DNA of 35,213 nt from Pseudonocardia sp. KRD291. Lineage in GTDB: Bacteria > Actinomycetota > Actinomycetes > Mycobacteriales > Pseudonocardiaceae. The translations under genes and the position numbers were made by a program. Of the stretch, positions 3,190-27,497 are shown piece by piece. Position 1 is the stretch's first letter. Each line of letters starts with the position of its first letter. The notes under the pieces were generated by a model that was given only the letters and a program-made list of their open reading frames with translations, did not search any database and was not told the origin of the DNA. The DNA lies in NCBI RefSeq assembly GCF_019263595.1, contig NZ_JADQDD010000023.1:1-35213 (forward strand), written 5' to 3'.

Positions 3190-4194
3190 ATGGCCGCGCA
3201 CGACCCGACCGACCTGCCGGACGGCTTGATCGACGTGCACACGCACGGGATCGACCCCGACCTGCCGGACCTGTCCGCGCACCCCGGCCGCTGGCCGTCG
3301 GTGCGCCGCACGGGCGAGGGCACCGCGCAGATCCTGTTCGACGGCCGGGTCTACCGGGAGATCGACGACCGGTGCTGGGCGCCGCAGCGGCGGCTGCGCG
3401 ACATGGACGACGAGGGCGTCGCCGCGCAGCTCGTCTCGCCGATCCCGGTGACCCTGTGCCACGACCAGCCGGCCGCGGGCGCCGCCGTGCTGGCCGCCGC
3501 GCAGAACGAGTTCCTCGCCGGCCTCACCGCGGCCGCACCGGGACGTCTGTACGGGCTCGGCGCCGTCCCGTTGCAGGACGTCGACGCGTCGGTGCGCGAG
3601 CTGCGCCGCTGCGTGGAGGATCTCGGCTTCCTCGGCGTCGAGATCGGCACCCGCGCCGGCGAGGTCGAGCTGGCCGACGAGCGCCTGGACCCGTTCTTCG
3701 ACGCCGCCGCCGAGCTCGGTGCGTTCGTGCTCGTGCACCCGGTGGACCTGACGCTCGACCCGCGCCTGGCCGCGCTCGGCGTCGGGTTCGGGCTGGGCAT
3801 GCCGTCGGAGACCGCGGTGGCCGCAGCCGGTCTGATCACCGGGCGCCCGCGGCGTCCGGGTGTGCGCCTGTGCCTGGCGCACGGCGGCGGGGCCCTGCCC
3901 GGGATCCTGCCGCGTCTCGACCGCGGTGCCGTGCTGGCCGGGCGGACCGGGCCGAGCCCGGGGGAGCGGGCCCGGGAGCTGTGGTGCGACTCGCTGACCT
4001 ACGACTCCGCGAGCCTGGAGCTGGCCGTCACCCGCTTCGGCGCCGGGCACGTCCTGGCCGGTACCGACTACCCGTTCGCGGCCCGCGAGTCCCCGGCCGG
4101 GGCCGTGCTCGCCGACCTCGACCCGGCACTGGCGGCGGCGATCGGGCGGGAGAACGCCGCGTCGCTGCTCGGCGGAACCGTCCGCGGGGCGTGA
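3190..4194 (+). CDS. Amidohydrolase family 2 (ACMSD/decarboxylase-like) metal-dependent hydrolase
   Basis: A 334-residue TIM-barrel amidohydrolase of the PF04909 type. The metal ligands are all visible: His17 and His19 in DVHTH, His183 in VLVHPVD, His231 in LAHGGG and Asp293 in AGTDYPF. This pattern is shared by 2-amino-3-carboxymuconate semialdehyde decarboxylase and the gamma-resorcylate or 5-carboxyvanillate decarboxylases, so decarboxylation is as likely as hydrolysis. GGAGG at 3181-3185 fits the ATG at 3190. A TAGCGT hexamer at 3150-3155 could be its own -10 element, about 35 nt ahead of the start; otherwise it is cotranscribed with the TetR gene 55 nt upstream. The neighbouring acyl-CoA synthetase and SDR suggest a degradation pathway in which this enzyme acts on a carboxylated ring or its cleavage product. 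The specific substrate is not deducible. Confidence 0.9.
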   Translation: MAAHDPTDLPDGLIDVHTHGIDPDLPDLSAHPGRWPSVRRTGEGTAQILFDGRVYREIDDRCWAPQRRLRDMDDEGVAAQLVSPIPVTLCHDQPAAGAAVLAAAQNEFLAGLTAAAPGRLYGLGAVPLQDVDASVRELRRCVEDLGFLGVEIGTRAGEVELADERLDPFFDAAAELGAFVLVHPVDLTLDPRLAALGVGFGLGMPSETAVAAAGLITGRPRRPGVRLCLAHGGGALPGILPRLDRGAVLAGRTGPSPGERARELWCDSLTYDSASLELAVTRFGAGHVLAGTDYPFAARESPAGAVLADLDPALAAAIGRENAASLLGGTVRGA

Positions 4195-4219
4195 CCGCCC
4201 GGACGGCGACACGCCGATA

Positions 4220-4250
4220 GCGGTGGGGCGGACCGTGTCCGCCCCACCGC
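4220..4250 (+). terminator. GC-rich terminator hairpin after the amidohydrolase
   Basis: GCGGTGGGGCGGAC at 4220-4233 pairs perfectly with 4237-4250 around a 3-nt loop. There is no U-tract, which is common in GC-rich actinobacteria. It starts 25 nt after the amidohydrolase stop and also follows the convergent lysine-rich ORF ending at 4272, so it may serve both directions. Confidence 0.75.
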
Positions 4251-4271
4251 GTCATCCGTGCCGCACGGACG

Positions 4272-4319
4272 TCACTTCTTCTTCTTCTTGCCCTTCTTGT
4301 CCTTCTTCTTCTTGCCCAT
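4272..4319 (-). CDS. Lysine-rich 15-residue micropeptide ORF
   Basis: On the minus strand, ATG at 4317-4319 opens a 15-codon frame ending in TGA at 4272-4274: M-G-K4-D-K2-G-K5, 11 lysines of 15 residues, all encoded AAG. It is preceded by a near-ideal Shine-Dalgarno, GGGGAGGTGA, ending about 4 nt before the ATG, and by a good sigma-A-like promoter (TTGACA at 4405-4400, 16-nt spacer, TATGTT at 4383-4378). The combination of start, strong ribosome site, promoter and stop argues for real translation. The product would be a very basic, probably unstructured peptide that could bind RNA, ribosomes or anionic membrane. It is divergent from the HTH gene at 4420, with three palindromes between them. 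An alternative is that the run of AAG codons is a translational or transcriptional regulatory leader. I recognise no characterised family. Confidence 0.6.
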   Translation of the reverse strand: MGKKKKDKKGKKKKK

Positions 4320-4377
4320 GCCGTCACCTCCCCGATACCGTTCCGTGAACATCGTCAACCAGGTATTGACTGAAGTC

Positions 4378-4405
4378 AACATATCATTGACGGACACGGT
4401 GTCAA
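4378..4405 (-). promoter_or_regulatory. Sigma-A-like promoter for the lysine-rich ORF
   Basis: Reading the minus strand, a consensus TTGACA occupies 4405-4400 and TATGTT occupies 4383-4378, with a 16-nt spacer. The predicted start near 4371 leaves a 5' leader of about 50 nt holding the strong Shine-Dalgarno. The -35 overlaps operator copy 3 and the -10 overlaps operator copy 2. Confidence 0.55.
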
Positions 4406-4413
4406 GCTAGGAT
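4387..4413 (+). promoter_or_regulatory. Candidate promoter for the HTH gene, leaderless transcript
   Basis: TAGGAT at 4408-4413 lies 6 nt before the ATG at 4420, the spacing expected when transcription starts at the A of the start codon. A TTGACG at 4387-4392 could be the -35 element, although the 15-nt spacer is short. No Shine-Dalgarno precedes the ATG, consistent with a leaderless mRNA. Both hexamers are covered by operator copies 2 and 3, so autoregulation is plausible. Confidence 0.5.
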
Positions 4414-4419
4414 TGACGG

Positions 4420-4683
4420 ATGGCGGCACGGGGTTCGGTCGAGCGGGTGGCGCATGCGGTCGCCGAGGTCGAGGCGGCGACGAAGCCCACGGCCGTGCTG
4501 GAGGCCGCCCGACGCCTGCGCGAGGCGGCCGAGGACCTCGAGTTCACCGCCGTCGAGGAAGCGCGCCAGACCGGCACGACCTGGACCCGGATCGGCGAGC
4601 TCTACGGCACCAGCAAGCAGGGTGTGCAGCAGCGTTTCGGCGGGGTGGCGCGGCGCAGGCGGTTCGCGGAGCCGGCCGACTGA
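4420..4683 (+). CDS. Small helix-turn-helix DNA-binding protein
   Basis: An 87-residue protein. Residues 1-45 are helical and acidic/alanine-rich (VERVAHAVAEVEAATKP, then LEAARRLREAAEDLEFTAVE). The C-terminal part, TWTRIGELYGTSKQGVQQRF, is a typical HTH with the G-T-S-K-Q turn and the recognition helix, similar in shape to sigma region 4 and to small actinobacterial HTH proteins with a TWxxIGxxxGxSRQxxxQRF pattern. A basic tail follows (RRRRF). There is no Shine-Dalgarno; a TAGGAT 6 nt upstream suggests a leaderless message. It is divergent from the lysine-rich micro-ORF, and the three GTCAA-N7-TTGAC palindromes overlap both promoters, so I infer an autorepressor that also controls the peptide. 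An alternative role is a nucleoid-associated or housekeeping HTH factor. Confidence 0.85.
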   Translation: MAARGSVERVAHAVAEVEAATKPTAVLEAARRLREAAEDLEFTAVEEARQTGTTWTRIGELYGTSKQGVQQRFGGVARRRRFAEPAD

Positions 4684-4959
4684 GCAGTGTCGCGGATCCC
4701 GTGGGAGACGCGCCGGGGCATGCCGCTCACAGCGCCGTCACCACCTGCGGTGATGCCGTCCACCGACCCGGCCCCACATCGGACGCCAGGATGTGGTTGG
4801 CTGATCGTGGTCGTTCGGTTTCGGTGTTCGTGTTTTGCACGCGCGGGGACAGCTCGGTGGTGTAGTGGACGAGGGCACAGAGTGCTCGTCCGCCCCGCCG
4901 GGTTCGGCCGGCAACCCGCACAGTGCGGGGCGCCACCACCTGCGAGGAGCAGAGAAGAC
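4684..4959 (+). promoter_or_regulatory. Intergenic region with probable long 5' leader of the cold-shock gene
   Basis: 276 nt without a convincing gene. It is less GC-rich than its surroundings between about 4790 and 4870. TTGCAC at 4835-4840 is a possible -35, with weak -10 candidates near 4858-4866, which would leave a leader of roughly 90 nt, in line with the long structured leaders usual for cold-shock mRNAs. GAGGAG at about 4944-4949 is the ribosome binding site, 10 nt from the ATG. The promoter assignment is weak. Confidence 0.4.
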
Positions 4960-5163
4960 ATGACTCAGGGCACTGTGAAGTGGTTCAACGGCGAGAAGGG
5001 CTTCGGCTTCATCGCTCCCGACGACGGCTCCGCGGACGTCTTCGTCCACTACTCGGAGATCGACGCGTCGGGCTTCCGTAGCCTGGACGAGGGCCAGAAG
5101 GTCGAGTTCGAGGTGGGTCAGGGCCAGAAGGGCCCGCAGGCCCAGGGCGTTCGCGTCATCTGA
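4960..5163 (+). CDS. cspA: Cold-shock protein, CspA family
   Basis: A 67-residue single cold-shock domain protein, the normal family length. The RNA-binding motifs are intact: RNP1 as KGFGFI and RNP2 as VFVHY, after the invariant GTVKWFN start. It binds single-stranded RNA and DNA and acts as an RNA chaperone that melts secondary structure; many actinobacterial copies are constitutive. The ATG at 4960-4962 follows GAGGAG with a rather long 10-nt spacing. It appears monocistronic: a long leader lies upstream and a strong hairpin terminator (5177-5216) begins 13 nt after the stop. The numbering of paralogues (A, B and so on) cannot be settled from one copy. Confidence 0.97.
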
Positions 5164-22227: not shown

Positions 22228-22275
22228 TCGACACGCCGGCTCGCCGGCGGTCTCGACACGCCGGCTCGCCGGCGG
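22228..22275. repeat. Two tandem 23-nt repeats with internal dyad
   Basis: The 23 nt at 22228-22250 (TCGACACGCC...GGCGG) are repeated exactly at 22253-22275, a period of 25. Each copy has an internal hairpin GCCGGC-TC-GCCGGC. They resemble the dispersed extragenic repeats with CGACACGCCGGCTCGCCGG found in several actinobacterial genomes, by memory only. They lie in the gap between DUF808 and helicase genes. Confidence 0.8.
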
Positions 22276-26951: not shown

Positions 26952-27497
26952 GTGCTGATCCGGCAGGCGAGCCGTGACGACGGGCCGGCGTGCGCGGCGC
27001 TCTATGCGCCCTACGTCACCGACACCGTGATCACGTTCGAGAGCGAACCACCGACGGCGGTCGAGATGGCCGACCGGATCGAGGCGGCGAACCTCCGTCA
27101 CGCCTGGCTGGTCGCCGAGGACGACGACGGCGTCCTGGGCTACGCCTACGGCGGCGAGTGGAAGCCGCGCGCGGCCTACCGGTGGACCTGCGAGGTGGCG
27201 GCCTACCGGTGGACCTGCGAGGTGAGCGTCTACCTGCGGTCCGGCGTGCGCCGGACCGGCGCCGGAAGGGCGCTCTACGAGGCGCTGTTCGCGCGGCTCG
27301 TCGAGCGCGGTCACCTGGTCGCGGTGGCCGGCATGACGCTGCCGAACGACGCCAGCAGGGGCCTGCACCGCGCGCTGGGCTTCGAACCGGTCGGGACGCA
27401 CCGGCGGGTCGGCTGGAAGCACGGTGCCTGGCACGACGTCGCCTGGGTGCAGAAGACGCTCGCCCACGGGACCGTGCCGCCGGCCGAGCCTGCGTAG
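26952..27497 (+). CDS. GNAT acetyltransferase (phosphinothricin-acetyltransferase-like) with a tandem duplication
   Basis: A 181-residue GNAT protein of the PAT type: LIRQASRDDGPACAALYAPY, TVITFESEPPTAVEMADRI, GVLGYAYGGEWKPRAAYRW, the acetyl-CoA loop RRTGAGRALYEAL, and AGMTLPNDASRGLHRALGFEPVGTHRRVGWKHG with WHDVAWVQK at the end. Relatives acetylate phosphinothricin, methionine sulfoximine or related amines. The segment AAYRWTCEV occurs twice in a row because 27 bp (27171-27197) are repeated exactly at 27198-27224. The duplication adds nine residues in the strand just before the CoA loop, which may distort the active site. The GTG at 26952 follows TACCGT at 26940-26945 by six bases, so the message is probably leaderless. 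Confidence 0.92.
   Translation: MLIRQASRDDGPACAALYAPYVTDTVITFESEPPTAVEMADRIEAANLRHAWLVAEDDDGVLGYAYGGEWKPRAAYRWTCEVAAYRWTCEVSVYLRSGVRRTGAGRALYEALFARLVERGHLVAVAGMTLPNDASRGLHRALGFEPVGTHRRVGWKHGAWHDVAWVQKTLAHGTVPPAEPA
27171..27224 (+). repeat. Perfect 27-bp in-frame tandem duplication in the GNAT gene
   Basis: Two identical adjacent copies, 27171-27197 and 27198-27224, each nine codons (AAYRWTCEV). The lack of any mismatch implies recent origin, probably by replication slippage or unequal recombination, and it would be reversible by the same route. Confidence 0.97.

Follow-up and report, generated by a model that had tools for sequence, protein, structure and literature searches.

ClpC2, RelI and a stand-alone relative in Pseudonocardia

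The closest described relative of the system considered here is the mycobacterial protein ClpC2 (Rv2667). ClpC2 represses its own gene by binding the palindrome CGTCAAC-n5-GTTGACG, which is often present in two copies, has a predicted leaderless promoter beneath it and has been studied in published gel shifts (Taylor et al. 2023, PMC10030653); the protein is released by cyclomarin or by protein unfolding (PMC10030653, PMC12913811). A further member of the same helix-turn-helix (HTH) family, RelI, is a protein of 85 amino acids and the experimentally shown antitoxin of RelS-RelI. The authors of the RelS-RelI paper report no inverted repeats upstream of relSI, and they also record that HTH-DUF3887 fusion proteins exist in actinomycetes (PMC13284704). 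The subject of the present analysis is a stretch of 35,213 nucleotides from Pseudonocardia sp. KRD291 (contig NZ_JADQDD010000023.1), called the window throughout, in which the gene for an 87-amino-acid HTH protein stands opposite a divergent open reading frame (ORF) for a lysine-rich micropeptide, with three copies of the palindrome GTCAA-N7-TTGAC between them. We consider it likely that these elements form a compact autorepressed regulon, in which a dimeric HTH repressor would silence both its own gene and that of the micropeptide by way of the palindromes. The operator core and the kind of regulator are already known from the ClpC2/RelI line and are not new. The remark in an earlier, sequence-only reading of this DNA that no module of such composition is described must be given up in that regard (PMC10030653, PMC13284704), while it stands for the coupling of the HTH protein to lysine micropeptides, which, together with the coupling to a second, exchangeable partner, is undescribed in the open-licence PMC literature searched.

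By homology, the 87-residue protein consists of an HTH domain of the ClpC2/RelI type that stands alone. A profile built from 13 HTH proteins (A1) matches both RelI (9sdc, E 1.2e-10) and ClpC2 (8ada, E 8e-5) in a search of PDB sequences, and the protein is nearly the same size as RelI (87 against 85 amino acids; PMC13284704). The counterparts of the ClpC2 salt bridge D46-R57 are likewise present, position 38 being acidic in 28 of 31 sequences and position 49 an arginine in all 31. The structure model of the window protein (predicted local distance difference test, pLDDT, 88.9) places the second HTH helix at residues 66-82; a Foldseek search with this model gave no PDB match at E <= 0.001, RelI and ClpC2 included.

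The likeness to ClpC2 extends from the homologous HTH/dimer domain to the promoter, since in both cases the GTCAA-N7-TTGAC core lies in the protein's own promoter, often in at least two copies over the -35 and -10 elements, and in both the gene is predicted to be leaderless; autorepression, shown for ClpC2, would by homology be expected of the 87-residue protein also (PMC10030653). Unlike ClpC2, the small protein is without the C-terminal domain, resembling the ClpC1 N-terminal domain (Clp_N), that handles drugs and unfolded proteins: no Clp_N match is found in it, whereas each of the three ClpC2-type relatives that were scanned gives one. A second difference is that a divergent micropeptide seems to be controlled at the HTH module as well. 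The sites themselves also diverge beyond their shared core. Pairs of ClpC2-type palindromes mostly have a spacing of 28-29 bases (23 for L087 and L088), compared with 21 and 26 in the window and 21-27, or 48, in its relatives. An inner C/G pair occurs in 45 of 49 ClpC2-type sites (26 loci) but in 16 of 73 module sites (32 loci), and an outer C/G pair in 38 and 13 of the same sets, respectively; the inner pair is absent from all three sites of the window, such that the extended operator C-GTCAAC-n5-GTTGAC-G is not realised there. With the same core but different flanks, the module and the ClpC2 regulons are probably insulated from each other.

With respect to RelS-RelI, the difference lies in the clear palindromes of the HTH module, none being reported upstream of relSI (PMC13284704); a RelS-type toxin gene was not noticed beside the module, although no RelS profile search was made. 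A counterpart of the HTH-DUF3887 fusions is found in L019, which has the same HTH with an exact palindrome in front but differs from the module in its fused DUF3887, and beside which no micropeptide was found. In a weakly resolved tree of 53 columns, the short HTH proteins form nearly one group (two changes, where one would be perfect) and most ClpC2-type proteins form another, while the long-branched RelI is placed in a weakly supported group that includes, among others, L019 with its DUF3887.

Operator palindromes and their arrays

A pattern scan confirms that the three copies noticed in the sequence-only reading, which begin at 4354, 4375 and 4401, are exact (Table 1), and a fourth copy is absent from the window even with one mismatch allowed. 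Chance is ruled out as their origin by the window shuffles, by the genome counts and by comparison of arrays with a reversed control. When up to one mismatch is admitted, shuffled windows hold a mean of 0.32 copies and only 1 of 100 has at least three anywhere. Across the 6.57 Mb of the genome the pattern is present six times, namely as the window's three copies and as three singles, against one copy of the reversed pattern. Single copies are close to background, at 2-7 per genome versus 1-5 for the reversed pattern in six other genomes. Arrays, in which two palindromes are separated by 2-14 bases, occur in 47 of 62 Pseudonocardia genomes, that of KRD291 included, versus none of the 62 for the reversed control. 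In other words, the signal resides in the array and not in single palindrome copies.

The base before TTGAC had been described as always A. This is true of the three window copies and does not carry further, since across 32 loci, the window included, the 73 distinct exact sites have A there in 33 cases, G in 32 and C in 8. Position 6 of these sites is never A and position 12 is never T, which means that both half-sites obey one rule, as recognition by a dimer would leave.

Conservation and an exchangeable partner

Searched with the A1 profile, 21 of the 62 Pseudonocardia genomes hold close HTH relatives (E <= 1.7e-26, the next match being at 5.4e-13), and in every one of these 21 the HTH gene is preceded by two to four exact palindromes. 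Outside the genus there are 12 loci, of which eight come from 397 genomes of the order, two from 296 of the class and one from 396 of the phylum, these samples overlapping, together with one locus from Kribbia that was found via the operator pattern and not the profile; each of the 12 has at least one exact palindrome. Three of them (L044, L112 and L113) contribute to the profile; matches were accepted at E <= 1.5e-23 in the samples of 397 and 396 (own genome aside) and at E <= 3.9e-22 in that of 296, and the HTH frames of L068 and L083 were recognised with a looser sequence pattern. The absence of the palindromes from relatives that keep the HTH gene, set down beforehand as the check on the proposed switch, is therefore not seen at any of these 21 and 12 loci, within the genus or beyond it.

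The divergent gene is a lysine micropeptide of 13-19 amino acids in 14 of the 21 Pseudonocardia relatives (for example MAKKKKGKKGKKKK), and a micropeptide is present in 10 of the 12 loci outside the genus. As a control, 53 loci taken from weaker matches (some of them duplicates) contain no lysine peptide within 900 bases. The pairing of the HTH gene with a lysine micropeptide thus recurs in related bacteria, within what is overall a patchy distribution of the HTH. The expectation that sites, peptide and HTH gene would be kept together holds, then, for the majority of loci and fails in the remaining seven of the 21, where an unrelated protein of 93-106 amino acids takes the place of the peptide (L010, L061, L062, L063, L065, L070 and L072, L062 being counted as the twin of L061). 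This replacement protein has a predicted four-helix fold (model pLDDT 88.8), with nothing significant in Pfam and PDB sequence searches and no PDB fold match at E <= 0.001, and the HTH genes that it stands opposite belong to two distinct branches of the tree.

A micropeptide that follows its operator

Start codon, Shine-Dalgarno-like stretch and lysine frame of the micropeptide are kept in 26 loci, 24 of them beside the HTH gene and two unlinked from it. The frames are 13-24 codons long, their lysines almost all AAG and their stops TGA, TAG or TAA, and behind the ORF a strong hairpin is found in 16 of the 26 loci (z <= -2.5 versus mononucleotide shuffles). In three genomes, G025, G065 and G066, of which the first two look like near-duplicates, the HTH locus holds the replacement protein instead of the micropeptide, and a micropeptide gene is found unlinked (L144, L145 and L164, respectively), each time behind two exact palindromes and with no HTH gene recognised beside it. 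Since these unlinked genes have double operators of their own, the micropeptide follows the operator and not merely the neighbouring gene, and it appears to belong to the regulon independently. Single palindromes of six genomes were also considered, and the three additional loci read there (L174, L175 and L183) contained no further micropeptide.

The association can also be read from the side of the arrays. Among 38 array loci, some overlapping and all within the fetched loci, 28 contain a family HTH frame, three a lysine micropeptide alone, three a DUF4037-type gene and one (L162) an HTH-like gene, with nothing recognised at the other three (L132, L163 and L166).

Which domain reads the operator

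Taylor et al. assigned DNA binding by ClpC2 to its C-terminal domain, in which a double arginine mutant shows weaker DNA binding and 2.0-fold derepression; the dimerisation mutant R57A gives 4.6-fold derepression (PMC10030653). The present comparison suggests that it is the HTH, rather than this C-terminal domain, that reads the operator, because module proteins without the C-terminal domain keep the operator core, because the salt bridge of the ClpC2 dimer is kept in these proteins, and because the end of the second helix, at position 72, tracks the presence of the operator. Where a domain sequence has one or more sites upstream, those with one mismatch being counted, position 72 is R in 69 of 70 cases; where there are none, it is K in 21 of 22, a contrast between clades and not between independent events. 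The crystal fragment of ClpC2 (8ADA, residues 4-72) ends before the part that is aligned with the second HTH helix.

Promoters and the proposed mechanism

Within the window, the HTH -35 and the peptide -10 fall on palindrome 2, and the HTH -10 and the peptide -35 on palindrome 3 (Table 1), so that the earlier statement that the palindromes cover the HTH -10 and both elements of the peptide promoter holds at the level of sequence matches. Where promoters are interleaved on shared palindromes in this manner, a single repressor or a single RNA polymerase would be expected to obstruct the two together. The leftward micropeptide promoter is the sole promoter-like match in 4180-4760 (shuffles 0.0, standard deviation 0.2), a scan that did not list the HTH promoter. 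Of the 33 module loci, eight show recognisable interleaved double promoters (the window itself, as L056, and also L058, L059, L010, L061, L062, L063 and L065), six a partner-ward promoter alone and a further six an HTH-ward one alone; the interleaved arrangement is accordingly one layout among several. More widespread is TANNNT at 6-7 bases ahead of a start codon, which is found in 27 of the 33, and it is the position of its counterpart in the window from which a leaderless HTH transcript is predicted.

Table 1. Features of the divergent HTH-micropeptide locus, in window positions
Feature	Position	Strand	Basis and remarks
Hairpin after micropeptide	4220..4250	.	14-bp perfect; terminator-like without T run; downstream 60 nt fold z -5.2
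Lysine-rich micropeptide MGKKKKDKKGKKKKK	4272..4319	-	ORF; 11 Lys of 15, all AAG
Micropeptide Shine-Dalgarno GGGGAGGTGA	4324..4333	-	Sequence match
Operator palindrome 1 GTCAACCAGGTATTGAC	4354..4370	.	Exact pattern match
Operator palindrome 2 GTCAACATATCATTGAC	4375..4391	.	Exact pattern match; overlaps HTH -35 and peptide -10
Putative micropeptide extended -10 (TGa)TATGTT	hexamer 4378..4383	-	16-base spacer; in palindrome 2
Putative HTH-gene -35 TTGACG	4387..4392	+	Sequence match; 15-base spacer
Putative micropeptide-gene -35 TTGACA	4400..4405	-	Sequence match; at palindrome 3
Operator palindrome 3 GTCAAGCTAGGATTGAC	4401..4417	.	Exact pattern match; overlaps HTH -10 and peptide -35
Putative HTH-gene -10 TAGGAT	4408..4413	+	Inside palindrome 3; ends 6 bases before ATG
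Stand-alone 87-aa HTH protein, ClpC2/RelI-type HTH, predicted leaderless	4420..4683	+	Homology, profile matches

Within the proposed regulon, the 87-residue protein would be a dimeric repressor that corresponds by homology to ClpC2's N-terminal domain and is devoid of the ClpC1-like sensor domain, and its dimers would bind the GTCAA-N7-TTGAC palindromes. Occupation of palindromes 2 and 3 would silence the predicted leaderless HTH gene together with that of the micropeptide, and a fall in active repressor, for which proteolysis or a binding partner may be guessed as the cause, would switch both on. The micropeptide, apparently made from a separate monocistronic mRNA and presumably translated, would be the output of the switch. 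Its extreme charge suggests a polycationic effector with an anionic target, which might be nucleic acid, the ribosome, polyphosphate, the membrane or an acidic protein. We infer repression from the homology and from the conserved sites, and the compact autoregulated switch first proposed for this DNA, with the HTH protein controlling itself and the peptide, gains support from that same conservation and from the kinship with ClpC2 and RelI.

Points against the regulon, and alternatives to it

Several observations weigh against this autorepressed regulon. Within the 3 kb surrounding each of the three other palindromes of the genome, neither an HTH gene nor a lysine peptide was recognised. Ten of the 38 array loci have no family HTH frame, three of these being the ones with a micropeptide only. 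The peptide is replaced in the seven Pseudonocardia loci given above, and at two loci outside the genus (L116 and L119) the HTH gene and palindrome are kept with no micropeptide found; nor was an unlinked micropeptide found in G029, G031, G075 and G078 beside the exact sites read (two single sites of G078 being unread). The spacer of the HTH promoter is short, no promoter pair is recognised in 13 of the 33 module loci, and the module sites mostly lack the extra C/G bases of ClpC2. The half-site TTGAC is, moreover, also the -35 consensus. Finally, the C-terminal arginine mutants of ClpC2 speak against the HTH as operator reader, and the proposal that it fills this role must call them a secondary contact (PMC10030653).

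Four alternatives can be set beside the regulon, the likelihoods given for them not being mutually exclusive. The one that survives best is a toxin-antitoxin pair, in which an HTH antitoxin of the RelI line would repress and neutralise a toxic polycationic peptide or, by exchange, the four-helix protein. It is compatible with the autorepressor part of the regulon and differs from it on the peptide. RelI, whose antitoxin role was demonstrated by experiment and whose HTH is of this family, provides a precedent (PMC13284704), and both the alternation of two unrelated partners opposite the HTH gene, on two branches of the tree, and the patchy distribution of the HTH (21/62 in the genus; 8/397, 1/396 and 2/296 outside) are what such a pair might display. 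The partner is, however, divergent and not in an operon with the HTH gene; RelI lies outside this HTH group in the tree, though its branch is long; and the window protein has no tblastn match on plasmids or phages (one weak partial match of the HTH was seen in viral contigs), a result that likewise counts against a mobile element. Since peptide genes can be unlinked from the HTH gene, as in three genomes they are, a plain regulon fits better, and a toxin-antitoxin pair appears unlikely.

Slightly less probable is that the module is switched by the same cell's ClpC2, once ClpC1-targeting peptides or unfolded proteins have released it, with the small HTH protein only modulating. KRD291 does have a Clp_N-HTH gene of the ClpC2 type (L160), with two palindromes of one mismatch each and the same operator core, and the release of ClpC2 by cyclomarin or unfolding is published (PMC10030653, PMC12913811). 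Against this stands the preference of ClpC2-type sites for the two C/G pairs that are missing from most module sites, which points to a separate specificity.

That the palindromes are no more than overlapping -35 boxes of divergent promoters, with the HTH protein acting elsewhere, is very improbable. The shared consensus, and sites 2 and 3 which carry both -35 elements, would be explained in this way, but the fixed N7 in two to four copies would not, nor would site 1, which serves no promoter found, the arrays in 47 genomes versus none for the reversed pattern, or the single rule at positions 6 and 12 of both half-sites; furthermore, gel shifts have been published in which ClpC2 binds this very core (PMC10030653). 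Least probable, by a little, is that the lysine ORF encodes no peptide, being instead part of a small RNA transcript or a chance low-complexity run of AAG, since, very short and simple as it is, and with strong hairpins behind 16 of its 26 instances, its start codon, Shine-Dalgarno-like stretch and lysine frame are kept in all 26 with three types of stop, and are matched by no lysine peptide in the 53 control loci.

Other arrays and the surroundings of the module

At three array loci (L167, L141 and L149), pairs of palindromes 28 bases apart precede a DUF4037 gene, the Pfam match having been made on L167 only, and a further exact palindrome lies beyond; this gene is perhaps another member of a ClpC2-type regulon. 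A different arrangement is found in L162 (1465-2312), where a gene for 130 amino acids, which contains an HTH-like stretch and matches nothing in Pfam, lies close behind two palindromes, and a second pair, one exact and one with a mismatch, follows some 800 bases further on. In the alphaproteobacterium Rhodothalassium (L038, 4777-5477), three palindromes lie ahead of a frame of 189 codons whose HTH is of the same type. Judged by these matches, the joint occurrence of operator and HTH extends beyond the actinobacteria.

In the window, the neighbours of the module besides the micropeptide are what we take to be an amidohydrolase-like ORF and a cold-shock-like ORF, both named from motifs; the latter, at 4960-5163, adjoins the module and is so called for its VKWFN motif. 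Among the loci scanned, this motif is near the module only in the window and in its near relative L059, and no evident common genomic neighbourhood emerged, other clusters of frames, common to 3-10 loci, not having been examined individually. On the other side, a terminator search found no T-tailed terminator behind the micropeptide. Attenuation by a leader peptide was considered and is unlikely, because the gene beyond the micropeptide is convergent in the window. Elsewhere, the window contains perfect tandem duplications at 27171-27224 (period 27 bases) and 22228-22275 (period 25).

Implications

A wider proposition may be put forward, tentatively and as somewhat short of likely, namely that Actinobacteria own operator-controlled polylysine micropeptides which act as regulon effectors under stand-alone ClpC2-type HTH repressors, with partners exchanged, with a peptide gene that can be relocated together with its operator, and with the HTH as the operator reader throughout the ClpC2 family. 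If this were true, the published model of DNA binding by the C-terminal domain of ClpC2 would need revision. The HTH proteins that are without such a domain make the question of the DNA reader a testable one in any case. The module also links an orphan class of lysine peptides, 13-24 amino acids long, to a regulator whose kin are ClpC2, with its part in defence against a ClpC1-targeting antibiotic, and RelI, the relative that governs a ribosomal-RNA-cutting toxin (PMC13284704).
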